From positions 1 to 64,000 of the forward strand of contig NC_014931.1 of the NCBI RefSeq assembly GCF_000184745.1: a stretch of DNA of 64,000 bases. Reading direction: 5' to 3'. Below the pieces are notes generated by a model that saw only the letters and a program-made list of their open reading frames with translations, was not told the origin of the DNA and ran no database searches. This document shows, in pieces, positions 19,406 through 33,318 of the stretch. The translations under genes were made by a program, and so were the position numbers. The DNA is from Variovorax paradoxus EPS. Lineage in GTDB: Bacteria > Pseudomonadota > Gammaproteobacteria > Burkholderiales > Burkholderiaceae_C. Numbering within the stretch: position 1 is the first letter of the stretch; each line of letters starts with the position of its first letter.

Positions 19406-20197
19406 TTACCTAGGCCACTGCTGGCGTTGCCAGTAGCGGTATTGCCAATGCGTTTGAAAGCCGGCGCGCCGATAGAGCGACAGCGCCGGATGATTCTGCG
19501 CATCGACCTGCAGGAACACGCGCTCGAACCCCTTCGTCAGTGCCCCTTGAGCGAGCCCCGCCAGCACGCGCCCCGCGAGGCCCCGGCCCCGGTGCGCCTT
19601 GTCGGTCCGCATGCCGTGCACGCTGGCCCAGCCATGTCTGAAAGCCATCGCGCCCGCGGCCACCGTGCGGCCGTTCTCGCGCACGCTCGCATAGAGCGAG
19701 CCCTTGGCGCGGGCCAGTGCGCGCACGCGATGCGCGCCGTCCACCGGATCGAATCCCTCGCCGAGGAACAGCGCCGCCCAGGCGTCGTCGGGTGCGCGGT
19801 CGACATCGGCCAGTGCGCCGGCACCCGCACCCGCACCGGTTCCCGCAGCCGCGACCTGCCGCATCTGCCGCGCCGTTCCGATCTGCACGCAGGTGGGGTG
19901 GTCTTCGACGTAGTGCCGCCGCTCCAGCTCGGCCCGCAAGCTGTCGAAGCAGTCGGCGTCAGCCAGCCGCAGCGCGGGCACGACCTGGCGGCTGTCGTAG
20001 CGGTCCTCGATGCGATCCAGCGTGCCGGCATCCACCGCGCTGCGGTGCAGGGGAACCGCCGACCTCGCGCGCTTGACGGTGCCGCCGTCGAAGGGCAGCA
20101 GCCAGCCGTCGAGTTCTTCGGACGCCTCGGGCGACACCGCCGCGACGGTGGCGCGCTCGATGGCTTCGATGTCGGCAACGCTCGGCATTGAGCTCAT
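19406..20197 (-). CDS. GNAT family N-acetyltransferase
   Basis: A 263-residue protein from the ATG at 20197, which overlaps the upstream stop as ATGA and is probably translationally coupled. The acetyl-CoA-binding segment is HRGRGLAGRVLAGLAQGALTKG, followed by VDAQNHPALSLYRRAGF, both typical of GNATs. The N-terminal half is a divergent, possibly degenerate second GNAT-like domain containing an Ala/Gly low-complexity run. Last gene of the exosortase operon; its substrate is unknown. Confidence 0.82.
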   Translation of the reverse strand: MSSMPSVADIEAIERATVAAVSPEASEELDGWLLPFDGGTVKRARSAVPLHRSAVDAGTLDRIEDRYDSRQVVPALRLADADCFDSLRAELERRHYVEDHPTCVQIGTARQMRQVAAAGTGAGAGAGALADVDRAPDDAWAALFLGEGFDPVDGAHRVRALARAKGSLYASVRENGRTVAAGAMAFRHGWASVHGMRTDKAHRGRGLAGRVLAGLAQGALTKGFERVFLQVDAQNHPALSLYRRAGFQTHWQYRYWQRQQWPR

Positions 20198-21462
20198 TGT
20201 GTGTTGGCCTCCGGGGCGATGTACTTGGCCGCCGCCACGCTCTTGAGCAGCGCCTCCCGCTGATTGCGGCTGATGCCGCGCACGCTGTCGGCGACCCACT
20301 TGGTGCGGTCGGGGTCGATCTGTCCGTCGCGCCGCCATTGCTCGAGCACGGCCTGCGGCTTGTGCAGCATCGCGGCGAGCCACACGGCCTGTGCGGGCTC
20401 CAGCGTGCGCGCGCTGCGCTTGAAGTAGCGCCGCGCCGCCGCCTCGGCGCCGCAGAGGGTGCCGCCCCAGGGCGCGTTGTCGAGATACAGCTGCAGGATG
20501 CGGGCCTTGCCCAGCGTCTGTTCCATCTCGACCGCATAGAGCATTTCGCGCAGCTTGCGCTCGGCCGTGCGGTCGCTGCCGGTCACCAGCAGCTTGGCGA
20601 GCTGCTGCGTGAGCGTGCTGCCGCCGCGCTTGGTCTGGCCTTCCTTCTGGTTGTTGTCGATCGACGCGAGGATCTCGGTGATGTCGTAGCCCGCGTGCGT
20701 GAAGAAGCGCTGGTCTTCGGCCGCGATGACGGCGCGCGCCAGCCAGCTGTCGTTGGCCAGCTTGGCGGACGGGCCGCAGCTGGTGCGCGCTCCGAGCATC
20801 GTCTCGGTGCCGAGGCCCTCGACGGTGAACTGGCTGATGACGGGCTGCACCGAGAACGTGGCTTCGGGCAGCACCAGTTGCGCGCTCACGGCGAGCGTGC
20901 CGCCGATGCGCGCGCGCTGCAGCTCGGGCAGCGCGGGCACCAGCACCGCGTACCAGCGCGCGATCGGCGCGTCCTGGACCTTGGCGCTCAAGTGCAGGTT
21001 CTTGGGGGCGAGCCGGCCTTCCCATGTGCCCTGGAGCATCTCCGTCTCGGTGGTCCCGGGCGTGGCTTCGAAGGTGCCGGTCAGCGTGTTGCCGTCGCGG
21101 CGCACGGTGGCGACCAGGCGCTCCACCTTGATCGGCTGCGTGCCGAGCGCCGGCACTTCGACGCTGCAGGGCTCGCAGCGCAGCTCCTGCAGGCCGGCCG
21201 CCTCTTTCCAGCTGAAGCGCACGGTGCCGAAACGGGTGTCGAGCGAATGGCCGTCCAGTCGCGGTGCGAACCAGGGCGAGGTGGCCAGGCGCATCGCCGT
21301 CGGGACACCGATCTCGAAGTTGAGCGGACCCGCCTTCACCGGCGTGCTCCATTCGCCCGCCGCCGGTGCCAGCGCGATCTTGACTATCAAAAAGATAGCT
21401 ACAAGCGCTGTCAACACAAGGGCCAGCAGCCCGAAAAGCACAAATCGCAGGGTCTTCTTCAC
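20194..21462 (-). CDS. GT51 peptidoglycan glycosyltransferase (MtgA-like, long N-terminus)
   Basis: A 422-residue protein from a GTG at 21462. One N-terminal membrane helix, then about 200 residues with no recognised domain, then a lipid II transglycosylase domain with all catalytic blocks: EDQRFFTHAG (catalytic Glu about 249), RGGSTLTQQLAK, and RKLREMLYAVEMEQTLGKAR...YLDNAPWG. There is no transpeptidase domain. Ordinary MtgA proteins are about 240 residues, so the inserted periplasmic region is unusual. It starts 10 bases after the exosortase-associated gene. A palindromic repeat encodes part of the membrane helix. Confidence 0.85.
   Translation of the reverse strand: MKKTLRFVLFGLLALVLTALVAIFLIVKIALAPAAGEWSTPVKAGPLNFEIGVPTAMRLATSPWFAPRLDGHSLDTRFGTVRFSWKEAAGLQELRCEPCSVEVPALGTQPIKVERLVATVRRDGNTLTGTFEATPGTTETEMLQGTWEGRLAPKNLHLSAKVQDAPIARWYAVLVPALPELQRARIGGTLAVSAQLVLPEATFSVQPVISQFTVEGLGTETMLGARTSCGPSAKLANDSWLARAVIAAEDQRFFTHAGYDITEILASIDNNQKEGQTKRGGSTLTQQLAKLLVTGSDRTAERKLREMLYAVEMEQTLGKARILQLYLDNAPWGGTLCGAEAAARRYFKRSARTLEPAQAVWLAAMLHKPQAVLEQWRRDGQIDPDRTKWVADSVRGISRNQREALLKSVAAAKYIAPEANTQ
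21384..21398. repeat. CTATC-AAAAA-GATAG palindrome inside a coding region
   Basis: A perfect 5-bp inverted repeat with an AAAAA loop. Same family as 7210-7226, but placed within the GT51 gene. On the coding strand it supplies codons for residues about 22-27 (AIFLIV) of the membrane anchor. Confidence 0.6.
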
Positions 21463-21472
21463 AAACACGTTC

Positions 21473-22042
21473 TCACATCGGTCTCGCCACCGTGACGGCT
21501 TGCCACGGACCGGTCGACTGTCCACTGGCCGCCGACCAATACCAGGCTGAAGTGTCGGTGAAAGCCGTGCCTTGGGCATCGACGATGCGCTCGCAAACGC
21601 GGATCTTTTGCGCACCGTGCCGTTGCGCAACAAAACAGCGCCACAAACGCGCCTGTGCATCGCGTTCGAGGCGCGCCTGTTCGATGCGGTAGCCGAGCGC
21701 GCGGTAGCAGTCCGCGGCCGGATGGAGCATGCGGGTGGGCTGCTTCACCTCGCGCATCACGAGCGTCTGGGTGCCGTCGGTCATGCGACCGATGGCGCCG
21801 GGGAAGCGGTCGGCGAAGCGCTGCTCGACTTCGCTCAATGCGAGCGGGCGCAATGGAACGCCGTCCCACTGGCTCGGCCACTCGTGCGATGCGGCCATCG
21901 CTTCAGGGGCAGCCGGTGCCCGCAGCGCCCCAGCAGTCGACCAAAGCATGCACAGCAGCATCGCCAGCGCGAAGGCTGTCTTGTGGCCGATGCGGTTGAT
22001 GAAATGGTTGGCGAACCAGCGCTCAAAGAACGGTGTCGACAT
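21473..22042 (-). CDS. Exosortase-associated exported protein
   Basis: A 189-residue protein whose start overlaps the exosortase gene by 20 bases. One N-terminal hydrophobic helix (TAFALAMLLCMLWSTAG) is followed by a periplasmic domain. That domain contains HPAADCYRALGYRI, VCERIVDAQGTAFTDTSAWYW and GPWQAVTV. Small proteins of this kind accompany exosortases (compare EpsI), but I do not recognise the exact family. Its position strongly implies a role in exosortase processing or anchoring. Confidence 0.7.
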   Translation of the reverse strand: MSTPFFERWFANHFINRIGHKTAFALAMLLCMLWSTAGALRAPAAPEAMAASHEWPSQWDGVPLRPLALSEVEQRFADRFPGAIGRMTDGTQTLVMREVKQPTRMLHPAADCYRALGYRIEQARLERDAQARLWRCFVAQRHGAQKIRVCERIVDAQGTAFTDTSAWYWSAASGQSTGPWQAVTVARPM

Positions 22043-22952
22043 GGCGGGCTCCTTGCGTGGTGATCAGGCCCGGAACGGGGTGGTCGGCGGGTTCCGGCAC
22101 GGCGCGCGCAGGCACCATCAGGCGGCCGATGCAGCCGCACACGGCCGCCAGCACGACGAGGCCCAGCGCGTTGTGCGCCCACGGCGCCAGCGCGTGGCCC
22201 GCGCCTTCGAAAGCGATCAGCACGCTGTTGCGCACGACGTTTCCGGCCAGTACCAGCACGCCGACCATCGGCAGGCGCCGCAGGAACGCCTTGTCGCTGC
22301 GGCGCGCCCACAGCGCGACGGCACAGGCGGTGAAGTAGCCCAGCCACACCATCTGCACGCCGGAGCAGGGCGCATCGACGATCACCAGGCGGCCATCCAC
22401 CATCAGGCTCGTGCCTTCGCGCGCCACGTCGAAGCCCGGCGCGAGCAGCCAGCGGCTGGCCTCGGCCGTCACCACGCGCAGCGGATAGCCGGCGTAGAAC
22501 TGCAGCGATGACAACAGCGGCAGCGCGAGCACCGCGAGACCCGTCACCGGCAGCGCGGCGACGCGCCTCGGCAGAAAAGCCAGCAGGCCGCAGGCCAGTG
22601 CCAGCACCGCCACCAGTCCCGCTGCCAGCGGCGGCAGCGCCGGCACGACGCCGAGCCCCGAGCGCAGTACCGTGGCGAGCACGGTGCCTGCCCCCGCGAG
22701 CGCCAGCCAGCCCAGTCGCGGGGATGCGCGCAACTCACGCCGGCATTGCCAGGCCAATGCAGCCAGTGCGACCAATGCCACGAGGCCCAGCGGATCGTCG
22801 GAGCCGTCGCGCATACGCTGGACCATCCACGCCCAGGTGGGCGCGAGCGCGGCGAACTGCAGCCCGAGCCAGCCGGCGGCCGGCGTGCGGTCGATGTGAA
22901 TGCCCCAATCCACGATGCGCGGATGACGGTGGGCGAGCGTTGCCAGAGACAT
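22023..22952 (-). CDS. Exosortase (PEP-CTERM transpeptidase-like)
   Basis: A 309-residue integral membrane protein with about eight hydrophobic helices. The exosortase catalytic residues are present: Cys196 in VDAPCSGVQM, Arg241 in NVVRNSVLI and His260 in APWAHNALGL. Exosortases cut PEP-CTERM tails during export and pass the protein to a surface anchor. The gene directly upstream, 18 bases away, encodes a protein with a PEP-CTERM tail, so this looks like a dedicated one-target system, perhaps of the Burkholderiales XrtQ type (subtype not verified). Confidence 0.88.
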   Translation of the reverse strand: MSLATLAHRHPRIVDWGIHIDRTPAAGWLGLQFAALAPTWAWMVQRMRDGSDDPLGLVALVALAALAWQCRRELRASPRLGWLALAGAGTVLATVLRSGLGVVPALPPLAAGLVAVLALACGLLAFLPRRVAALPVTGLAVLALPLLSSLQFYAGYPLRVVTAEASRWLLAPGFDVAREGTSLMVDGRLVIVDAPCSGVQMVWLGYFTACAVALWARRSDKAFLRRLPMVGVLVLAGNVVRNSVLIAFEGAGHALAPWAHNALGLVVLAAVCGCIGRLMVPARAVPEPADHPVPGLITTQGARHVDTVL

Positions 22953-22970
22953 GTTGTTCTTCCCGCGGCT

Positions 22971-25040
22971 TCAGGAGGTGAACCGGCGCGCGTCGTTGCG
23001 GCGCGCACGGCGGCGCAGCATAGCGAGCATCGACAGCACGACGGCGAGGGCGCCGAGCGTTTCGGGCTCGGGCGTGCTGGGCACCTCGGCACCCAATGCC
23101 GGGCCGGCCAGGTCGCTCACGCCTTGCGGCATCGGCAGCGGCTGGTTCACATCCACGCTGTTCTGCGGCGCCGCGTTGCGCACCACCTTGTCGACCGCGA
23201 TGAAGCTCGTGTACTGCGTGAGCAGGCTGTACTTCAGGCCCAGTTCGGTGATGCGCTCCTTGAAGGCCGCGCTGCCTTCGAGCGATTCCTGGTCGCTCAG
23301 GCTCTGGATGCGATGGCGTGCCCACAGCGTGCGCAGCGCGGCGGTGTCCAGGCGCGTGCGGTCGTCGATGCGCACTTCCTGGCGGTACGGGCCGCTGGCG
23401 CTCCGGCCTTCGATGATCACGCGGCCTTTGGCCTCGCCACGCCACTTGCCGAACACGATCACCGGGCGTTCGCCGAGCACGTCGGGCAGGGCTTGCGGTT
23501 CCACGTCGTACACATCGAGGCCGCCGAAGGTGGCCTTCACGCTGGTGAGCACCGGCGACTCCACCATGCGGCGAAAGCGCGCGGCCTGCTCGGGCGCCTG
23601 CACCGGGTCGGTGATGATGAACGGCTCGCCCATGCCGGCACGTGCGATGCCTTCCATCAGGCTGCGGTTCACCGAAGAGCCGATGCCGAAGGCGAACACG
23701 TTGGCTTTGGAGAGGTTGCTGCGCACCAGGTCGAAGGCTTCGCGCTCGACCGTCACGTAGCCGTCGGTCACCACGACCACGGTGCGCGACACGTTCTCTT
23801 CTTTCGGTTCGGCATAGACGCGCTTCAACGCCGGAATCAGTTCGGTGCTGCCGCTGCCGCTGTAGTTCTTGATCGTCGCGAGCGCCTGCTCGATGTTGGC
23901 GCGCGTGGCCGGCACCGACTTCGGCGAGAGCATCTTGTTGCTGCCCGAGAACAGCAGCACGTTGAAGGTGTCGCTCGGGCGCAGGCCGCCGATCAGGCGT
24001 TCGAGCACTGTCTTGGCCGTGTCGAGCGGAAAGCCGTGCATCGAGCCCGAGATGTCGACCACGAAGATGTAGTCGCGCGGAGAGATCGCGCTGGCGGCCA
24101 CGGCTTTCGGAGGCTCGACCATTGCGAGGAAGAAGTTCTCCGCGTTCTCACCTTGGCCCTTGTAGAGCATCAGGCCCGATTCGATTTTTTCGCCCGCGAG
24201 GCGGTAGTCGAGCACGAAGTCGCGGTTGTCGGCAGGGCGCCCATCGGCTGCGAGAGCGATGTCGGCGTGCTGGTCCTCGTCGCTCTTCTTCACGTCGATG
24301 GCGTGGGTGGTGGAGCGCACTTCCTTCAGGCCCATCGGCGTGTCGATGGTGGCCTTCAGCTTGAAGCTGGTGCTCGGCGCGGCGCCTGCGTGCAGCGTGG
24401 GTTGTGCAGCCCACTTGGCTTGCGCGTTCTCCGATTGCGGGCTGTTGTAGCGGGGGCCGACCACGGTCGGGAACACGAACTCGTAGTTGCCCGATTGCGG
24501 CACCAGCAGTTCGGTGTAGCGCAGCTCCACTTTCACGTCGTCGCCCGGCAGGATGTTGGCGACGTTCATCAGGAACACATTGGGCAGGTGCTGCTCGAGC
24601 AGCGCGGCGGTCTTGCCTTCTTTCTTGGCGGTGTCGTATTCGATCTGCGCCTGTTGCTTCTCGCGGATCTGCGCGGTGATCAGGCGATCGGCCAACCGGA
24701 CGTTGAGGCCGCTCACGGCAGCCTTGGTCGAACCGGGGAACACGTACTTGGCCTCGATCGCGCGCTGGCCTTCGTTGCGGTAGGTCTGCGTGACCGTGAC
24801 ATCGGCGATCACGCCCGAGATCTTGACGGCGACCTCGGTGCCCTTGAGCGGCAGGCGATCGACCGAAGGGTCGTCGCTCTTGACGAAGAAGTACGGGCTT
24901 TCTGTCTTGAGTCTTGGCCCGGCGGGCGCTTCTTGCGCATGCACCGGGCGCACGCCCATGGCGATGAAGCCCGCGGTCGCCAGGCTCACGGTGGCGAGCC
25001 AGAGCCAGCGGCCGGGACGTGGGGTGGTGGTGGCATCCAT
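22971..25040 (-). CDS. VIT and VWA domain surface protein with PEP-CTERM sorting signal
   Basis: A 689-residue protein from the ATG at 25040. Signal peptide ends RPVHAQ. A vault/inter-alpha-trypsin (VIT) domain at about 55-180 includes the family blocks VTQTYRNEGQRAIEAKYVFP and REKQQAQIEYDTAK. A von Willebrand A domain at about 320-500 has the MIDAS motif DISGSM (329-334). The last 33 residues are a PEP-CTERM signal: PEPETLG, a hydrophobic helix, then RRRARR. It is predicted to be exported, processed by the adjacent exosortase and held at the cell surface, where VIT/VWA modules usually mediate adhesion. First gene of the operon. Confidence 0.92.
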   Translation of the reverse strand: MDATTTPRPGRWLWLATVSLATAGFIAMGVRPVHAQEAPAGPRLKTESPYFFVKSDDPSVDRLPLKGTEVAVKISGVIADVTVTQTYRNEGQRAIEAKYVFPGSTKAAVSGLNVRLADRLITAQIREKQQAQIEYDTAKKEGKTAALLEQHLPNVFLMNVANILPGDDVKVELRYTELLVPQSGNYEFVFPTVVGPRYNSPQSENAQAKWAAQPTLHAGAAPSTSFKLKATIDTPMGLKEVRSTTHAIDVKKSDEDQHADIALAADGRPADNRDFVLDYRLAGEKIESGLMLYKGQGENAENFFLAMVEPPKAVAASAISPRDYIFVVDISGSMHGFPLDTAKTVLERLIGGLRPSDTFNVLLFSGSNKMLSPKSVPATRANIEQALATIKNYSGSGSTELIPALKRVYAEPKEENVSRTVVVVTDGYVTVEREAFDLVRSNLSKANVFAFGIGSSVNRSLMEGIARAGMGEPFIITDPVQAPEQAARFRRMVESPVLTSVKATFGGLDVYDVEPQALPDVLGERPVIVFGKWRGEAKGRVIIEGRSASGPYRQEVRIDDRTRLDTAALRTLWARHRIQSLSDQESLEGSAAFKERITELGLKYSLLTQYTSFIAVDKVVRNAAPQNSVDVNQPLPMPQGVSDLAGPALGAEVPSTPEPETLGALAVVLSMLAMLRRRARRNDARRFTS

Positions 25041-25147
25041 GGCGGGGGTCCTTGTCCGTGCGAACTTGCACAGCCGCAACTTTCTCTGCCGCACGAGAAG
25101 GCAGTTGGAAGGCTTCTTGAAGTCGCCCGCCACGAACGCCGCGCTGT

Positions 25148-25163
25148 GTGAAGCCTGTGTGAA
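25148..25163 (-). promoter_or_regulatory. Candidate CreB-binding direct repeat (cre-tag)
   Basis: On the minus strand this reads TTCAC-ACAGGC-TTCAC, an exact match to the E. coli CreB target TTCAC-N6-TTCAC. It lies in the 204-base gap between the divergent VIT/VWA and creD genes, 108 bases upstream of the former and 82 bases upstream of the latter. A half-matching partner reads TTCAC-ACAAGC-TTCGG on the plus strand at 25182-25197. CreB and CreC are encoded 7 kb away in the same window. Confidence 0.7.
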
Positions 25164-25244
25164 GTGACCCGGCACCGGTGCTTCACACAAGCTTCGGGTC
25201 GCGCAGGGAGCATCACCGCTTCGCTACAGACGAGGAGAAAAACC

Positions 25245-26708
25245 ATGCTTCAGTTTCTGAAGGCACTTCAGACATCCGTGCTGGCCAAGGTGGCCGGCCT
25301 GTTCTTCCTGACGCTGCTGCTTTGCATTCCGCTCGCGGAGATCGACTCGATCAACAACGCACGCGGCGAGAGCCAGCGCGAAGCCGCCCAGGAACTCGCC
25401 GCCACCTATGCCAGCAGCCAGACCATGATCGGCCCGCTGTTGCTGGTGCCTTATGTCGAGCGCTGGATGGAGCCGCTGCGCGATGCGCAAGGCAAAGTGA
25501 TCGGCCAGGAGCAGCGCAGCAAGGAAATGGTCCACGCGGTGTTTCCCGACAAGCTGCACATCGAAGGCTCGATGACGCCGCAGGAGCGGTATCGCGGCAT
25601 CTTCAAGATTCCGTTCTACACACTCAACGCCACGCTGACCGGCGGCTTCACAGCCTTCGACCCCAAGGTCCTGCCTCACAGCGAGAACGATTCGAAGATC
25701 GAGTTCAAGGCGCCTTTCATCGCCTTCAACGTGAGCGACCTGCGCGGCCTCGACGGTTCGCCGGCGCTGGTGATGGGCGGCGAGGCACTGCGTTTCAAGC
25801 AGCGCGTGCCGGGCCTTGCCGACAACGCCTGGTTCGCCGATGGCATCCACGCACCGGTCACCGGCGCCGCACTCGCTGCATGGCAGGCCAACACGCCACT
25901 CACCTTCGAGATGAAGCTCGGCCTCGTCGGCCAGGACACCCTCGCGATCGCGCCCATCGCCGACGACACCACCGCACACCTCACCTCGCCCTGGGCGCAC
26001 CCCAGCTTCGGTGGCCGCTTTCTCGCGGCGCAGCGCAACGTGACGCCGCAGGGCTTCGATGCGCAATGGCGCATCTCGTCGCTGGTGACCTCGGCGCGCG
26101 AACAGGTGCGCGCCGGACTCTCCGGCCGCGTCGATGGCAACGATGCAGCCGCAGTGGCGACGGCGAGCAGCGCGCGCCCGCAACGCAACCTCGGCCCGCT
26201 GCAGACCTTCGACGTGTCGCTCGCGCAGCCGATCAACGTCTATTCGATGAGCACGCGCGCCGGCAAGTACGGCATGCTCTTCATCGGCCTGGTGCTGATG
26301 GCGGCCTTCATGTTCGAGCTCTTCCGCAAGCTGCGCCTGCACCCGATCCAGTACGGCCTGGTCGGCCTTTCGATCGCGCTGTTCTTCCTTTTGCTGCTCG
26401 CGCTGTCCGAGAAGTTCGCGTTCTGGATCGCCTATGCGGCTGCAGCCAGCGCCAGCGTTGCACTGCTCGCCGTGTACTTCAGCGCCGTGCTCGGCGGCTG
26501 GAAACGCGGCCTGTCGTTCGGTGCCTTCATCGCGCTGTTGTACGGCGCGCTCTATGGGCTGCTCGCCTCCGAAAGCAATGCGCTGCTGCTCGGCGCGCTG
26601 CTGATCTTCGGCATGCTGGCCACGCTGATGCTGGTGACGCGCAAGGTCGACTGGTATGCACTGTCGCGCCGCGCGGAACCCATAGCACCTGTTGCACAAG
26701 GCGCATGA
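25245..26708 (+). CDS. creD: Cell envelope integrity inner membrane protein CreD
   Basis: A 487-residue protein from the ATG at 25245, which has CGAGGAG upstream. An N-terminal membrane helix (VAGLFFLTLLLCIPLAEI), a large periplasmic region of about 320 residues (YVERWMEPLRDAQGK..., with the CreD block VTPQGFDAQWRISSL), and about six closely spaced C-terminal helices match CreD. CreD is the hallmark CreB-regulated gene, linked to envelope integrity and beta-lactam response. The candidate cre-tag upstream fits. Its stop overlaps the next start as ATGA. Confidence 0.92.
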   Translation: MLQFLKALQTSVLAKVAGLFFLTLLLCIPLAEIDSINNARGESQREAAQELAATYASSQTMIGPLLLVPYVERWMEPLRDAQGKVIGQEQRSKEMVHAVFPDKLHIEGSMTPQERYRGIFKIPFYTLNATLTGGFTAFDPKVLPHSENDSKIEFKAPFIAFNVSDLRGLDGSPALVMGGEALRFKQRVPGLADNAWFADGIHAPVTGAALAAWQANTPLTFEMKLGLVGQDTLAIAPIADDTTAHLTSPWAHPSFGGRFLAAQRNVTPQGFDAQWRISSLVTSAREQVRAGLSGRVDGNDAAAVATASSARPQRNLGPLQTFDVSLAQPINVYSMSTRAGKYGMLFIGLVLMAAFMFELFRKLRLHPIQYGLVGLSIALFFLLLLALSEKFAFWIAYAAAASASVALLAVYFSAVLGGWKRGLSFGAFIALLYGALYGLLASESNALLLGALLIFGMLATLMLVTRKVDWYALSRRAEPIAPVAQGA

Positions 26709-27997
26709 AACTCCTGCGATCCGCGCTCGGCGCCCTGGGCTGGCTGGCCCTGGCAGCGCTGTGGTTCTGGGCCTGGCACCTGAAGGACCCGCATCTGCGC
26801 TTCATGCGCGCATGGGAGTTGCCGACGTTGTTGGGTGCGCTGGGCGTGGGCGCGGTGATTGCATGGCGCTTCGGGCGTCGCGCGCTACGGCCCGTGTCGC
26901 TCGGCCTGGTGTTCGCGGCGCTGCTCACGGCCCTCGGCAACGAAGCGGCGAGCCTGCATCACCGTGCCGCAGTGCCCGCCTCATCCGGCCCCTTGGCGCA
27001 GATGCTCGGCGCGCACTTCATCGTCGGCTACGACGATGCGAAGGACCTGCACGAGCTCGCCCGCAAGGGCTTGATCGGCGGCGTGTTCATCACGGGCCGC
27101 AATGTGAAGGGACGCACGGCCATCGAACTGCGCAAGGAGATCGATGACCTGCAGGCCCTGCGCCGCGAAGCCGGCCTGCCTCCGCTGATCGTCGCGACAG
27201 ATCAGGAGGGCGGCGCCGTGTCCCGCCTCTCGCCGCTGATCGAACGGCAGCCCGGCCTCTCCACGCTCATCGACGCCGACGTGCCCGAAGCCGAACTCGC
27301 GCAGCGAGCGCATGCGTACGGCGCGCAGCAAGGCCGCTCGCTCGCCGCGCTCGGCATCACGCTCAACTTCAGCCCCGTGGTCGATCTGCGTACCGGCCGC
27401 GAGCCGGGTCGATGGGATCTGCACACCCGCATCGACGAGCGCGCCATCTCGGCCGACCCCGCACTCACCACGCAGGTGGCGCTCGCTTACGAGCAAGGCC
27501 TCGAATCGGCTGGCGTGCGCGGCACGCTCAAGCACTTTCCCGGACTCGGCGGCGTGACCGAAGACACGCATCACTTCGCCGCAACGCTGCGCACGCCAGT
27601 CGCCCGACTTGCAACACATGACTGGAAGCCGTTTCAAGACGTGTCGAGAAACTCGAGCGCCGCGATCATGCTCGGCCATGTGGTCGTTCCGGAACTCGAC
27701 GCCGTCTATCCGGTCTCTTTCTCGCGCAAAATCGTGCAGCAGCTGATTCGCGGCGAGTGGGGCTACCAGGGCCTGCTCGTCACCGACGATCTGACGATGG
27801 GCGCGGCCTACAACCGCGGGCTGTGCGATGCCACGGTCCGCGCCCTCGATGCCGGTGTGGACCTGGTGTTGATCGCCTTCGACCACGACAAGTATTTCGA
27901 CGCCATGCATTGCGCGCAGCAGGCCGCGCAGCGCGGCGCACTCGACTTGCCGATGCTGGAACGCAGCGGTGCCCGCCGGCTCCAACCCCTTCGCTAG
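26705..27997 (+). CDS. Membrane-anchored GH3 beta-N-acetylhexosaminidase-like protein
   Basis: A 430-residue protein overlapping creD by four bases. Three hydrophobic helices in the first 80 residues are followed by a glycoside hydrolase family 3 domain: ATDQEGGAVSRL, NFSPVVDLR, KHFPGLGGVTEDTHH and the nucleophile segment TDDLTMGA. NagZ-type enzymes with this core remove GlcNAc from anhydro-muropeptides in the cytoplasm. Here the membrane anchor should place the catalytic domain in the periplasm. Coupling to creD suggests cell-wall turnover under envelope stress. Confidence 0.82.
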   Translation: MKLLRSALGALGWLALAALWFWAWHLKDPHLRFMRAWELPTLLGALGVGAVIAWRFGRRALRPVSLGLVFAALLTALGNEAASLHHRAAVPASSGPLAQMLGAHFIVGYDDAKDLHELARKGLIGGVFITGRNVKGRTAIELRKEIDDLQALRREAGLPPLIVATDQEGGAVSRLSPLIERQPGLSTLIDADVPEAELAQRAHAYGAQQGRSLAALGITLNFSPVVDLRTGREPGRWDLHTRIDERAISADPALTTQVALAYEQGLESAGVRGTLKHFPGLGGVTEDTHHFAATLRTPVARLATHDWKPFQDVSRNSSAAIMLGHVVVPELDAVYPVSFSRKIVQQLIRGEWGYQGLLVTDDLTMGAAYNRGLCDATVRALDAGVDLVLIAFDHDKYFDAMHCAQQAAQRGALDLPMLERSGARRLQPLR

Positions 27998-28008: not shown

Positions 28009-30411
28009 ATGTTCAAACGTTCAAGCCCCTCCCGACCCGACGACGGCGCCACGCCGGACGAACGCAACGCCCGCTGGAGACTCATCGGCAAATGGAGCGC
28101 CATCGTGGTGGGCTCCGGCGCACTGGTGGTGCTGGTCGCATCCATCGTCGCGGTGGTTGCCATCTATCCGAAGCTGCCCGACATCTCCGAACTTGCCGAC
28201 TACCGGCCCAAGCTGCCGCTGCGCGTGTATTCCACCGAAGGCACATTGATCGGAGAGTTCGGCGAAGAGCGCCGCAACCTCACGCCCTTTGCGAGCATTC
28301 CCAAGGTCATGAAAGACGCGGTACTCGCCGTGGAAGACGCCCGCTTCTACGACCACGGCGGCGTCGACTACAAGGGCTTCGTGCGCGCCGCGGTGGCCAG
28401 CCTGAAGGGCGGCAGGAAGCAGGGCGCCTCGACCATCACCATGCAGGTGGCGCGCAACGTCTATCTGAGCTCGGAGCGCACGCTGAGCCGCAAGACCTAC
28501 GAGATCATGCTGGCCTTCCGGCTCGAGCAGCAGCTCACGAAGGACCAGATCCTCGAGATCTACCTGAACCAGATTTATCTCGGCAACCGCGCCTACGGTT
28601 TTGCCGCTGCGTCGGAAGCGTATTTCGGCAAGCCCCTGCAGAACGTGACGATCGCCGAAGCCGCGATGCTCGCCGGCCTGCCCAAGGCCCCCGGCGCGAA
28701 CAACCCGGTGGCCAACCCGCGCCGTGCGCGCGCACGCCAGCTCTACGTGATCGACCGCATGCAGGAGACCGGCTTCATCACCGCCGAACAGGCAGCCGAA
28801 GCCAAGAAGGAAGAACTGCACCTGCGCGACGCGGCCGACCCGAACCGCCTGCATGCCGAGTACGTCGCCGAAACCGTGCGGCAGATGATGTACACGCAGT
28901 ACGGCGACAGCATCTACACCAGCGGCATGAAGGTCTACACCTCGCTGGTCGCGGCCGACCAGGCGGCTGCCTACAAGTCGCTGCGCAAGGGCATCATGGA
29001 TTACGAGCGCCGCCAGGTTTATCGCGGGCCCGAGAAGTTCGTCGACCTGCCGACCGAGCAGAAGGAAGTCGATGAGGCCGTGGACGACGCACTCGCCGAA
29101 CATCCCGACAACGGCGATGTGATCGCTGCCGTCGTGCTCGATGCCAACGCGAAAGAAATCAGCGCCGTGCGCGCCAACGGCGAAGCGATCCAGATCACCG
29201 GCGAGGGCTTGAAGCCCGCGCAGTCGGGCCTCGCGGCCAAGGCACCGCCCAACATCAAGATCCGCCGCGGTGCGGTGATCCGCATGGCGAAGACGCCGAA
29301 GGGCACCTGGGAGATCACGCAGCTGCCCGAAGTGGAAGGCGCCTTCATCGCGATGGACCCGCGCAGCGGCGCGATCAAGGCGCTGGTGGGCGGTTTCGAT
29401 TTCGGCAAGAACAAGTTCAACCACGTCACGCAGGCCTGGCGCCAGCCGGGTTCGAGCTTCAAGCCGTTCATCTATTCGGCCGCGCTCGAAAAGGGCTTCA
29501 CCCCCGCCACGGTGGTGAACGATGCGCCGCTGTATTTCGATGCTGCCGCCAACGGTGGCCAGCCGTGGGAGCCGAAGAATTTCGAAGGCACCTACGAAGG
29601 CCCGATGCCGCTGCGCACCGCGTTGATGAAATCGAAGAACCTGGTGACGCTGCGCGTGCTGCAGTCGATCGGCGCGCCCTATGCGCAGGACTGGGTCACC
29701 AAGTTCGGCTTCGACAAGGACAAGCAGCCCGCCAACCTGCCGATGGGCCTGGGCGCCGGTTCGGTCACGCCGATGCAGATGGCCGTGGGCTATTCGGTGT
29801 TCGCCAACGGCGGCTACCGCGTCAATCCGTACCTGGTCACCCGCATCACCGACATGAAGGACAAGGTCATCATGGAAACCGAGCCGCCGGTGCTCGACGA
29901 AGCACGGCGCGCCATCCCCGCGCGCAATGCCTTCGTCATGGATTCGCTGCTGCAAAGCGTGGTGAAGGGCGGCACCGCGTTCAAGGCGCACCAGGCCCTG
30001 AAGCGCGACGACCTCTATGGCAAGACCGGCACCACCAACGATTCCTTCGACACCTGGTTCGCGGGTTTCCAGCCCACGCGCGTTGGCATCGCATGGATCG
30101 GCTACGACACGCCGCGCCAGCTCGGCGTGCGCGGCGAAACCGGCGGCAGCCTGAGCCTGCCGATCTGGATCGGCTACATGCAGTCGGCGCTGCAGGGCGT
30201 GCCGGTCACGCAGCCGACTGCACCGCCGGGCGTGGTGAGCATCGACGGCGAGTGGTACTTCGACGACTTCACGCCGGGGCACAACGTGGCGAGCCTGGGC
30301 CTGGAGAACGCCGAGCAGGCACCACCGCCGGTCGAAGAGCTCACCGGCGCGCCGATCGGGGCACCGCCTCCGCCTGAAGAGCGCAACCGCATCCTCGATT
30401 TCTTCAGGTAA
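28009..30411 (+). CDS. mrcA: Penicillin-binding protein 1A (bifunctional GT51/transpeptidase)
   Basis: An 800-residue class A PBP from the ATG at 28009, 11 bases after the GH3 gene. An N-terminal membrane helix (about 31-52) precedes the GT51 domain: catalytic E110 in EDARFYDHGG, then GASTITMQVARN and RKTYEIMLAFRLEQQLTK. An OB-like insert typical of PBP1A follows. The transpeptidase domain has SSFK (S482, K485), SKN and KTG (K672). It builds and cross-links peptidoglycan. Linked to creD and the GH3 gene, and closed by a terminator. Confidence 0.95.
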   Translation: MFKRSSPSRPDDGATPDERNARWRLIGKWSAIVVGSGALVVLVASIVAVVAIYPKLPDISELADYRPKLPLRVYSTEGTLIGEFGEERRNLTPFASIPKVMKDAVLAVEDARFYDHGGVDYKGFVRAAVASLKGGRKQGASTITMQVARNVYLSSERTLSRKTYEIMLAFRLEQQLTKDQILEIYLNQIYLGNRAYGFAAASEAYFGKPLQNVTIAEAAMLAGLPKAPGANNPVANPRRARARQLYVIDRMQETGFITAEQAAEAKKEELHLRDAADPNRLHAEYVAETVRQMMYTQYGDSIYTSGMKVYTSLVAADQAAAYKSLRKGIMDYERRQVYRGPEKFVDLPTEQKEVDEAVDDALAEHPDNGDVIAAVVLDANAKEISAVRANGEAIQITGEGLKPAQSGLAAKAPPNIKIRRGAVIRMAKTPKGTWEITQLPEVEGAFIAMDPRSGAIKALVGGFDFGKNKFNHVTQAWRQPGSSFKPFIYSAALEKGFTPATVVNDAPLYFDAAANGGQPWEPKNFEGTYEGPMPLRTALMKSKNLVTLRVLQSIGAPYAQDWVTKFGFDKDKQPANLPMGLGAGSVTPMQMAVGYSVFANGGYRVNPYLVTRITDMKDKVIMETEPPVLDEARRAIPARNAFVMDSLLQSVVKGGTAFKAHQALKRDDLYGKTGTTNDSFDTWFAGFQPTRVGIAWIGYDTPRQLGVRGETGGSLSLPIWIGYMQSALQGVPVTQPTAPPGVVSIDGEWYFDDFTPGHNVASLGLENAEQAPPPVEELTGAPIGAPPPPEERNRILDFFR

Positions 30412-30488: not shown

Positions 30489-31094
30489 ATGGAAATCCTC
30501 ACGCTGGTGGCGCTGCTTCTTGTCGGCGCCTACATCCTCAAGTCCAGAGACCAGCGCCAGCGCATCGCGCTGCTGGGAAGCCACCTCGGCCAGTACCAGA
30601 TCGAGAAGCTCATGGAGAGCCTGACCCAGGGCTATCTGCGTTGCCTCGGCGAAGACGACCCCGAGCGCCGCCAGCAGATCTGGAGCCTGCTCGACACCAC
30701 CGAGGAAAAGCTCTCGTCTCAGTTCGACAGCTTCGCCGCTGGCTTCGCGCGCCTTCCCGAAGCGGACACGCGCGTGAGCAAGCTGCCCATCGCCATTCCG
30801 TACGCACACAAGCTCTTTCCGTCCACGACCTTCGATCTGCGCGAAGCGCTGAACATCCACGCACGCGGCATCGCCGGCGTGATGAAAAACGCATCGAGTC
30901 GTCCGGCCAAGTCCAAGGCCTTCACCATGTCTGCCGAGTTGTTCCTGATGCAGCACACCTGCCACTGGTTCTGCAAATCGAAGACGGTGGCGTCGGCGCG
31001 CATGCTGGCGCGGCACCAGACGTCGTACGAGCAACTGCTCGATGCGGTGAGCCCCGAGACACGCCGCGCCTACGGCACGCTGACGGGTCAGTGA
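30489..31094 (+). CDS. Single-pass membrane protein of unknown function
   Basis: A 201-residue protein. One N-terminal transmembrane helix (ILTLVALLLVGAYIL) is followed by a soluble helical domain with two notable His/Cys segments (LREALNIHARGIAG and LMQHTCHWFCKSKT), which could bind metal or heme. I do not recognise the family. It follows the mrcA terminator and overlaps the 3' end of creC by seven bases on the opposite strand. Confidence 0.75.
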   Translation: MEILTLVALLLVGAYILKSRDQRQRIALLGSHLGQYQIEKLMESLTQGYLRCLGEDDPERRQQIWSLLDTTEEKLSSQFDSFAAGFARLPEADTRVSKLPIAIPYAHKLFPSTTFDLREALNIHARGIAGVMKNASSRPAKSKAFTMSAELFLMQHTCHWFCKSKTVASARMLARHQTSYEQLLDAVSPETRRAYGTLTGQ

Positions 31095-32527
31095 TGTGAC
31101 AACAGCGGCAGCGTGAGCGTGGCCACCGCGCCGCCGCGCGTCGCATTGCCGAGCTCGATGCGCCCTCGGTGCAGCGAGGCGATTTCCTTCACGAACGCGA
31201 GCCCCAGCCCCGTGCTTTTCTTCTGGCTGTGCGGCCGCGCGAGCGAATAGAACTTCTGGAAGACTTTTTCCTGCGCGTAGTCCGGAATGCCCGGGCCATG
31301 GTCGCGCACGGTCACGCGTGCGAGCTTCGACGTGGTCTCCAGCGTCAGCAGCACCTCGCTGTCGGGCGGTGAAAAATCGATCGCGTTGTCCAACAGATTG
31401 CTGATCGCGCGGCGCAACAAGAACGGGTCGCCCTCGGTGCTGGCTTCGGTGCGGATGTTCACCAGCAGGCGAATGTTCCGCTTGGCCGCCGCGGGCTGCG
31501 CGCTGATGGCGATGTCGTCGATCAGCGAAGCCAGCGGCACCGGCTCGGTGCGCTCCAGCGCGCGCCGCGTTTCGAGCGCGGTGAGCTCCATCATGCGATC
31601 GACGATTTCCTGGATGCGCTGCGTCTCGCGCTCGATGTTCTTCAGGAACCGCTCGCGCTCCGCATGCGGCATCGACGGCTCCTGCAGCAGCTCGGCTGCG
31701 CCGCGGATCGCCGAAAGTGGACTTTTCACTTCGTGCGTGAAGGTCTGCACGTAGTCGGCGACGTAGTTGCGGCCCGTCAGTGCATCGCGCATTTCGCTGA
31801 AGCCGGTGCGCACCGCATCGACCGCGCGCCGCGCCATGCGCGAAAAGCTCAGGGTGCGCTGCGCGCGCACCCAGGTCCAGTAGTCCGAGATCAGCCCGAA
31901 GGGCCGCACCAGCCAGACCGAGACGATCACCGCCAGCAGCAACAGCGCGAGGCCCGAACCCACGCCCACCCACAGCGTGCGGGCGCGCGCGTCTTCCACG
32001 AACTGGCCGAAGCTCTGCACCGGCTTGCCGACGCTGACCATGCCGACGATCTCGTTGTTCCAGCGAATGGGCGCGCCCACGTACATCACCGAAGTGCGCG
32101 GATCGCCGTCGACATCGCGCGAGGTGCGCGCGCCATAAAGGCCGGCGAGCGTGCGGCTCACGTCGCTCCATTGCGAGTAGTCGGCGCCCAGGTGCCTGCC
32201 GAGCGAATCGAACATCACGCGGCCGCTGCGGTCGGTGACGTACACGCGCAGTTCCACCTGGCTCTTGTGCAGGTTGTAGATCTGCGCGGAGAACTCGCGC
32301 GCGTAGACGGTGCGGAACAGGGGCTCCAGTCGCCCGGTGTTGATGGCGCCCGCGATCACGTCCTGCTCGACCAGGCTGGCCATGAGCTGCGAGGTCTCGA
32401 CCAGCGACTCTTCGGCTGATTCGCGGTAGCGCGGATCGATGTCCGACACCACGCGGTAGAGCAGAAAGGCGATGCCCGCCGTGTAGATCAGCAGGATGCC
32501 GATGAAGATCCGCGTGCGTCTTGTCAC
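31088..32527 (-). CDS. creC: Two-component sensor histidine kinase CreC
   Basis: A 479-residue protein starting at a GTG (32527) that overlaps the creB stop as GTGA. First membrane helix IFIGILLIYTAGIAFLLY, a periplasmic sensor region of about 170 residues with the CreC-type block YVGAPIRWNNEIVGMVSVGKP, a second helix, then HAMP-like, dimerisation and ATPase domains. The phosphoacceptor His lies in FTHEVKSPLSAIRG; the N box is LLDNAIDFS; the G boxes include DHGPGIP and STGLGLAFVKEI. It phosphorylates CreB. Its 3' end overlaps the convergent gene by seven bases. Confidence 0.9.
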   Translation of the reverse strand: MTRRTRIFIGILLIYTAGIAFLLYRVVSDIDPRYRESAEESLVETSQLMASLVEQDVIAGAINTGRLEPLFRTVYAREFSAQIYNLHKSQVELRVYVTDRSGRVMFDSLGRHLGADYSQWSDVSRTLAGLYGARTSRDVDGDPRTSVMYVGAPIRWNNEIVGMVSVGKPVQSFGQFVEDARARTLWVGVGSGLALLLLAVIVSVWLVRPFGLISDYWTWVRAQRTLSFSRMARRAVDAVRTGFSEMRDALTGRNYVADYVQTFTHEVKSPLSAIRGAAELLQEPSMPHAERERFLKNIERETQRIQEIVDRMMELTALETRRALERTEPVPLASLIDDIAISAQPAAAKRNIRLLVNIRTEASTEGDPFLLRRAISNLLDNAIDFSPPDSEVLLTLETTSKLARVTVRDHGPGIPDYAQEKVFQKFYSLARPHSQKKSTGLGLAFVKEIASLHRGRIELGNATRGGAVATLTLPLLSHH

Positions 32528-33318
32528 GAAGCCTTGGCTGGCAATTCTTCGTTCAGGGCATAGCCGGTGCCGCGCAGCGTGCGGATCGGCTCCACATCGG
32601 GCGCCACCGCCTTGAGCTTGGCGCGCAGGGTCTTGATGTGCGCATCGACCGTGCGGTCGAAGCTGTCGCTCGCGTCGTCCCAAACGTGTTCCAGCAATTC
32701 GTCGCGGGTGAAGACGCGGCCCGGCCGCTGCACCAGCAGCCGCAGCAAGCCGTATTCGTAGCGCGAGAGCTCCAGAAGCCGGCCGTAATAGCGGATCTGC
32801 ATGCGCTCGTTGTCGAGCGCGAAGGGCATTGGCGGGGTCTGTGGGGCCGTTGGCGGCGCCGGCGGCGAAATTTGAGGGGGTACCCCGTTTCCGGGCCCTG
32901 CGGCCGTTCCGGGGCCTCCAGGGCTGTTGCGCGTGCTGCGCCGCAGGATCGTTCGGACCCGCGCGACCAGTTCGCGCGGCGAAAACGGCTTGGCGATGTA
33001 GTCGTCGGCGCCCAGTTCCAGGCCCACCACGCGGTCGATTTCGTCGCTGCGCGCCGTGAGAAACAGCATCGGGACCTCCGGCCCGCCCTGCGACTGGTTC
33101 AGCGCTCTCAGGCGCTTGAAGAGCTCGAAACCGTTGAGATCGGGCAGCCCGATGTCCAGGATGGCCAGCGCGGGCGGCTCCTCTGCGAACTGCGCGATGG
33201 CCTCTTCGGCGGTGGCGCACCAGACCGGCGTGAAGCCATCGCTCTTCAGGACGTATTGCAGCGTGTCGGCGATGCCCGATTCGTCTTCGGCGATCAGGAT
33301 CCGGGGTTTGAAGCTCAT
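32524..33318 (-). CDS. creB: Two-component response regulator CreB
   Basis: A 264-residue OmpR-class regulator. The receiver domain has the acidic pair ED in LIAEDESG, phosphoacceptor D55 in LAILDIGLPD and Lys in YIAKPFSPRE. The winged-helix domain ends RTLRGTGYAL. The two are joined by an unusually long Pro/Gly-rich linker of about 45 residues (STRNSPGGPGTAAGPG...), absent from the E. coli protein. First gene of creBC. Its probable target repeat is upstream of creD. The origin-like region starts about 100 bases upstream. Confidence 0.9.
   Translation of the reverse strand: MSFKPRILIAEDESGIADTLQYVLKSDGFTPVWCATAEEAIAQFAEEPPALAILDIGLPDLNGFELFKRLRALNQSQGGPEVPMLFLTARSDEIDRVVGLELGADDYIAKPFSPRELVARVRTILRRSTRNSPGGPGTAAGPGNGVPPQISPPAPPTAPQTPPMPFALDNERMQIRYYGRLLELSRYEYGLLRLLVQRPGRVFTRDELLEHVWDDASDSFDRTVDAHIKTLRAKLKAVAPDVEPIRTLRGTGYALNEELPAKAS

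Follow-up and report, generated by a model that had tools for sequence, protein, structure and literature searches.

The window analysed here, a stretch of 64,000 nucleotides of Variovorax paradoxus EPS (contig NC_014931.1, positions 1 to 64,000), contains the genes of the cell-wall stress two-component system CreBC, the gene creD, and an operon that encodes exosortase Q (XrtQ) and a VIT/VWA protein. CreBC appears to switch on the exosortase operon through conserved direct repeats in Variovorax and its relatives. We propose, with a probability of roughly 0.85, that the 204-bp gap at 25041-25244 holds two divergent promoters that would both be activated by CreB, and that CreBC would be the dedicated regulator of the exosortase Q operon together with a set of cell wall genes. 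We infer the binding of CreB, its activating effect, the stimulus, the anchoring of the VIT/VWA protein and the function of the system from comparisons of sequence.

Conservation of the CreB-type box

The gap separates creD (25245..26708, plus strand, ATG at 25245; NF008712, 475.8 bits against a cut-off of 275, and Pfam CreD) from the divergent VIT/VWA gene (22971..25040, minus strand, ATG at 25040). A previous interpretation, the sequence-only reading, had placed an exact TTCAC-N6-TTCAC repeat between both genes, and the repeat is indeed present as TTCACACAGGCTTCAC on the minus strand (25148..25163), forming the distal element of a tract that faces the VIT/VWA gene. It is the sole exact match to the motif in the window, and is identical to the published cre/blr tag, whose control of creD is known (excerpted text of PMC4689548).

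As a bare motif the box could be a chance match. Shuffled windows give a mean of 0.12 matches, with at least one match in 11 of 100, and the whole genome (6.55 Mb) holds three exact matches, the same number as for the reversed control pattern; both counts make the motif weak evidence when taken by itself. Since the genome count equals that of the control, the bare motif does not rise above chance, and counts of the motif over the whole genome were discarded as an argument. What lifts the box above chance is its position, its orientation and its conservation. From two partly overlapping genome sets, 114 XrtQ neighbourhoods (34 + 80 loci) were gathered and compared together with the window; 106 of the 115 loci were usable, after dropping five without a VIT match and four in which the VIT start was unmatched. 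The exact box lies upstream of the VIT/VWA gene and faces it in 104 of these 106 loci, and in 57 of 59 once near-identical upstream regions are removed. The two exceptions (L063 and L064) carry the box with one mismatch, and the opposite orientation is never seen (0 of 106). Other spacings occur in at most two loci each, save a spacing of 17 in 11 loci, which corresponds to two tandem 11-bp steps. Past the first flanking bases the information is near background, apart from weaker peaks at the downstream TTC positions, and the extended consensus is roughly AC-TTCAC-RCMGRC-TTCAC-ACA. The repeat is, therefore, conserved in relatives of the same synteny, a check that had been set beforehand, and it is the comparison across loci that makes convincing a repeat which singly stands at chance level. 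With one orientation, one spacing and little information outside the motif, the comparative data refute the chance match, to which we leave a negligible probability.

The close matches to XrtQ belong to Variovorax. Among 369 genomes sampled across the class, two exceed the XrtQ cut-off. One is the genome of the window; the other, G508, is from a different family and has the order creB-creC-box-VIT-xrtQ. A degraded form of the locus is seen in the Variovorax genome G587 (L224:1-1520), where the promoter and xrtQ are kept, xrtQ has diverged (46%), and all that is left of the VIT/VWA gene is a short frame encoding a signal peptide and a basic tail, which looks like a deletion of the middle part.

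CreBC as the constant partner of the exosortase operon

The sequence-only reading had a CreB-type repeat linking the exosortase system to creD; across the loci, CreBC is the constant partner of the exosortase operon, and creD is not. Within the stretch compared, 50 of the 106 loci have creBC and creD, 43 have creBC without creD, six have creD only and seven have neither, and in many of them creB-creC-VIT-xrtQ-partner-GT51 are colinear. Many genera lack creD altogether. Co-occurrence was analysed in 200 genomes of the family, of which 36 were taken as XrtQ-positive (33 above cut-off plus G148, G118 and G027, whose matches are fragmentary or sub-threshold; two weak matches were excluded). XrtQ is accompanied by CreB above cut-off in 34 of the 36 (p 1.4e-16, kinship ignored), whereas no association of XrtQ with CreD was found in the same 200 genomes (14 of 36, p 0.23). 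Moreover, 21 of the 22 CreB-positive, CreD-negative genomes have XrtQ. Since XrtQ co-occurs with CreB and not with CreD, the link is that of CreBC to the exosortase operon. On this comparison the constant partner of the operon is CreBC, and creD would be a divergent neighbour with a weaker box of its own.

Some observations weigh against so close an association. The p values ignore relatedness; in G104, a genome 76% complete, XrtQ is present and no CreB was found; and G146 gave no match when the family was searched for CreB, although its locus L050 encodes a CreB 63% identical to that of the window. In favour of the association, the box is kept also where creB stands elsewhere. Four genomes (G005, G091, G193 and G188) have their creB 46 kb away from xrtQ or on a different contig, with no creBC within about 7 kb upstream, and their loci carry the box, exact in L054, L059 and L060 and with one mismatch in L063. 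G129, CreB-positive and CreD-negative, has creBC-box-GT51 and no XrtQ match; the arrangement creB-creC-box-GT51, with no VIT/VWA gene or xrtQ nearby, occupies L171:4809-8591. The GT51 gene may be an older target of CreBC than the exosortase.

The box might belong to creD alone, the VIT/VWA operon being an unregulated neighbour, as creD is the gene classically controlled through the tag (excerpted text of PMC4689548) and starts at the other end of the gap. However, in all 104 loci with the exact box it faces the VIT/VWA gene, loci that lack creD included, and creD has a facing box of its own, which renders this explanation very improbable.

Direct repeats with an 11-bp period are in general use by regulators of the OmpR/PhoB class, so that a regulator of this type other than CreB might bind the repeats. 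Distant XrtQ-like genes with a partner protein (L188:9093-15375 and L189:1531-8304; 33% and 30%) stand close to another OmpR-type two-component pair (CreB match 37% and 34%), which would fit such a view. These two loci, however, have no box within one mismatch, XrtQ tracks CreB across the family, creB-creC lie directly upstream and colinear in many loci, and both half-site and spacing equal those of the cre/blr tag (excerpted text of PMC4689548). We consider recognition by another regulator distinctly unlikely, and CreB the probable ligand of the repeats.

Promoter layout on both sides of the gap

The sequence-only reading named a single repeat between the two operons. The exact box is that of the exosortase side, and creD has a separate, degenerate one, TTCACACAAGCTTCGG (25182..25197, plus strand), which differs from the TTCAC-N6-TTCAC tag by two mismatches and stands in inverted arrangement with the exact box. 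A 15-nt inverted repeat in the gap, 93% complementary, comprises the exact box directed towards the VIT/VWA gene and the degenerate box directed towards creD. On the minus strand, proximal degenerate half-sites follow in 11-bp steps (25097..25121, TTC beginning at 25121, 25110 and 25099), and 12 bp past the last TTC lies the putative −10 hexamer of the VIT/VWA operon, GAAAGT (25079..25084). On the plus strand, the putative −10 hexamer of creD, GAGCAT (25208..25213), is likewise placed 12 bp past a TTC. The creD-facing box, the proximal TTC repeats and the −10-like hexamers had been overlooked before.

These elements recur across the loci. Between box and VIT/VWA gene, TTC-N8-TTC is found in 55 of 57 de-duplicated loci, where simple base shuffles give 0.65, and NANNNT stands 12 bp past the last TTC in 53 of 55. 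On the other side, TTCAY-N6-TTC faces creD in 20 of the 22 de-duplicated creD loci, with NANNNT at N12 in all 20 de-duplicated loci that have the TTC pair (55 of 57 before de-duplication). The layout common to both promoters is TTC-N8-TTC-N12-NANNNT, as would be expected for an activator site ahead of a −10 element. Where creD is missing and the gene of the PBP1A-type protein adjoins the VIT/VWA gene, the layout faces PBP1A in nine of ten loci, four in the strict TTCAY form and five in a loose and closely similar form; five of the ten loci share the same or nearly the same stretch and are hence not independent. By eye, such a hexamer is also recognized after a third TTC or CTC, both in the alpha-2-macroglobulin promoters of L069, L230, L242 and L193 and in the creD promoters of L197, L198, L190 and L191, being absent in L196. 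That CreBC controls both operons, as had been suggested, is thus supported at the sequence level, each side having a TTC-type box and the 12-bp spacing to a −10-like hexamer.

With only 12 bp between the last repeat and a weak NANNNT hexamer, and with no usual −35 element present, CreB would probably activate in place of the −35. The sign of the control may nevertheless differ, since inactivation of creBC in Stenotrophomonas maltophilia raises the creD transcript 3.8-fold (excerpted text of PMC4689548). This result argues against activation, and would suit a CreB that binds but mainly represses, or merely tunes a promoter driven otherwise. Set against the activation layout of the repeats, we regard this possibility as unlikely, and activation by CreB as the preferred reading.

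The exosortase operon and the proposed mechanism

On the minus strand the VIT/VWA gene is followed by the genes for XrtQ (22023..22952), its partner protein (21473..22042), a membrane-anchored GT51 peptidoglycan transglycosylase (20194..21468, start codon inferred) and a GNAT acetyltransferase (19406..20197). On the plus strand creD is followed by genes for a GH3-family glycoside hydrolase (26705..27997, Pfam Glyco_hydro_3), the start of which overlaps the end of creD, and for a PBP1A-type class A penicillin-binding protein (28009..30411). Neighbours within both operons overlap or lie at most 20 bp apart. Beyond them, on the minus strand, are creC (31088..32527; HisKA and HATPase_c domains) and the adjoining creB (32524..33318; NF008296, 304.6 bits against a cut-off of 273). 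Measured from the box, creC ends at about 5.9 kb and creB extends over 7.4-8.2 kb, so that the distance of 7 kb given earlier for creBC is a fair one. The CreB of the window has 264 residues compared with 228 in the model, and a long Pro/Gly-rich linker joins its receiver and DNA-binding domains.

XrtQ, the only exosortase above the Pfam cut-off in the genome, belongs to exosortase Q by the curated cut-off of NF012182 (404.7 against 270 bits). The motif CSG, which we take to be the conserved active-site cysteine motif of exosortases, is present in 58 of 59 de-duplicated XrtQ proteins. The VIT/VWA protein, presumed to be the sole target of XrtQ, has a MIDAS motif and a C-terminal STPEP...RRR signal; with its C-terminal PEP motif, hydrophobic stretch and basic tail it has the features of a PEP-CTERM target, and a PEP motif lies in the last 45 residues of 56 of 59 de-duplicated VIT/VWA proteins. 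Against this assignment, the tail scores below the cut-off of Pfam PF07589 (17.8 against 20.7 bits); it is the best PF07589 match in the genome, at a threshold at which 13 of 14 control genomes also give matches. Sequence comparison relates the VIT/VWA protein to PARP4 and to inter-alpha-trypsin inhibitor heavy chains of solved structure. The partner protein consists of one N-terminal helix and a beta-rich domain, and it gives a match to the exosortase T model in the C-terminal part of that model; a fold search gave no match at E≤0.001. The transglycosylase is identified by its GT51 domain (Pfam Transgly, 3.6e-45), whose predicted model matches the transglycosylases 3nb6 and 2oqo (E 9.5e-11), and by the motif EDxxFxxHxG, presumably that of GT51, in 55 of 57 GT51 proteins. 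Its beta-rich N-terminal part of about 180 residues has invariant cysteines (C98 and C101 of alignment A1) and no Pfam match. The gene content agrees with the earlier idea of a surface display system with a built-in transglycosylase. As to the GNAT gene, it is the last gene of the operon in the window, but it is accessory, being present in only 30 of the 106 loci.

In the mechanism that we propose, damage to the wall would activate CreC, CreB would then be phosphorylated, and both operons would be turned on. Phosphorylated CreB would bind TTC-type half-site direct repeats at 11-bp steps and recruit RNA polymerase to a weak −10 element devoid of the usual −35. One promoter would drive VIT/VWA-xrtQ-partner-GT51-(GNAT), and the other creD-GH3-PBP1A, whose products would serve wall repair and turnover. 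XrtQ would process the C-terminal PEP-type signal of the VIT/VWA protein, its only target, and the GT51 enzyme would add glycan strands. In Pseudomonas aeruginosa, loss of PBP4 activates CreBC and cefoxitin induces creD; the excerpted text of that study calls the mechanism of the effect uncertain (PMC2654508).

Other boxes and a candidate regulon

Another of the three exact boxes in the genome, at 6507805, stands in front of an operon for a 2006-residue alpha-2-macroglobulin and PBP1C (L069:1463-10021, genome about 6499262-6507820), located 42 kb before the contig end. Close relatives of this alpha-2-macroglobulin occur in seven of the 200 family genomes, and five of the seven loci have the box (L190-L192, L069 and L193); three genomes, which belong to two other genera (G159; G174 and G062), have the order creBC-box-creD-alpha-2-macroglobulin-PBP1C (L190-L192). 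The third exact box (3969922; L068:10023-11334) precedes a gene for an FAD-dependent, geranylgeranyl-reductase-like protein, and a box precedes the same gene in one further Variovorax genome (L173). Past these boxes neither L068 nor L173 has NANNNT at N12; the FAD gene was, therefore, rejected as a target.

In 31 Variovorax genomes the pattern TTCAC-N6-TTCACAC gives 42 sites, spread over 28 genomes, compared with one for the control. Of these sites 27 precede the VIT/VWA gene, seven an alpha-2-macroglobulin gene and one the locus L224, which has creD and xrtQ beside the collapsed VIT/VWA gene, with one more (G575:C603) falling outside the gene assignment. Family-wide, TTCACRCNGNCTTCAC gives 63 sites in 53 of the 200 genomes, against seven for the control. 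From these, 20 regions were chosen, non-randomly, and the following gene was identified in 11; within this non-random choice, six are peptidoglycan or macroglobulin genes, namely alpha-2-macroglobulin (L160), MurA-like (L161 and L167), VanW-like (L162), GT51 (L171) and PBP1A-type (L177). The two MurA-like genes (L161:6020-7403 and L167:8384-9812) have the exact box upstream and stand in XrtQ-positive genomes; they pass the subfamily cut-off and not that of the murA equivalog, and are perhaps stress paralogues.

A regulon of wall genes is not borne out by every site. Two of the seven alpha-2-macroglobulin loci (L194 and L195) have no box within one mismatch, six of the 42 Variovorax sites are followed by no query gene, and five of the 11 identified genes are unrelated to the wall: secretin-like (L164), calcium-repeat protein (L165), acetoacetate-decarboxylase-like (L169), DJ-1-like (L176) and the FAD gene (L173).

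A joint role of alpha-2-macroglobulin and PBP1C in defence and repair has been proposed before (excerpted text of PMC4498604), and by analogy we infer that the idea may extend to the VIT/VWA protein and its GT51 enzyme. A broader and tentative picture, to which we give somewhat less than even odds, would be that CreBC acts in the Burkholderiaceae (in the GTDB sense) as a wall-breach regulator of two parallel modules of the type 'guard plus builder', one formed by alpha-2-macroglobulin with PBP1C, the other by the exosortase-anchored VIT/VWA protein with its own GT51 enzyme. In many genera creD would have gone and CreBC would have been kept for the exosortase module, which would replace sortase-anchored VIT/VWA systems and their two-component pair.

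The targets of CreBC and the role of CreD are poorly known, and conserved pairs of a surface or periplasmic protein with a peptidoglycan synthase would give CreBC a testable physiological meaning. For exosortase Q, both a regulator and a promoter would be at hand, along with a likely stress condition under which to seek its function, and the promoter layout permits the prediction of targets in other genomes. If the proposal is true, surface display would be linked to wall repair.

Comparison with known systems

The two-component system presented here is a known one; its putative conserved target was not found described in the literature searched, which includes few subscription journals. Within that scope, no paper joining an exosortase with CreBC or creD was found among the matches listed, and none that combines exosortase with XrtQ, or exosortase with VIT domain and von Willebrand; because subscription journals lie mostly outside the search, these negatives are not proof of novelty. 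The earlier suggestion that an exosortase regulon under CreBC had not been described before agrees with them.

The nearest relative is the CreBC/BlrAB regulon of Escherichia coli, Aeromonas, P. aeruginosa and S. maltophilia, with which the window shares a CreB above the cut-off, the same tag and the creD target; the CreB of E. coli also exceeds the NF008296 cut-off (273). It differs in that the stronger, constant box here serves the exosortase operon and in that creD is absent in many genera. As to exosortase Q itself, the window protein passes the curated cut-off for membership, and the model line NF012182 has no mention of the regulator, the promoter or the GT51 gene seen here. An RpoN-dependent PEP-CTERM gene is in print (PMC9850573). 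The PEP-CTERM/exosortase systems under PrsK two-component control likewise tie an exosortase system to a two-component system; here, in contrast, the regulator would be CreBC, and one exosortase is matched to one target.

TIGR03785, TIGR03787 and TIGR03788 presumably denote the proteobacterial dedicated (class GN) sortase system. The target of that system is likewise a VIT/VWA protein, to whose superfamily the one of the window belongs (TIGR03788, 426.6 bits), and a separate model, TIGR03787, describes its response regulator. The window proteins lie outside both models, the VIT/VWA protein being below the TIGR03788 cut-off (426.6 against 551.65 bits) and CreB far below that of TIGR03787 (130.8 against 335.7 bits), and an exosortase with a PEP-type signal stands in place of the sortase and its signal. 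Finally, the alpha-2-macroglobulin/PBP1C operon combines, in the same genome and behind the same box, a plasma-inhibitor-like protein with a peptidoglycan synthase, whereas the operon of the window has VIT/VWA, GT51 and exosortase instead.

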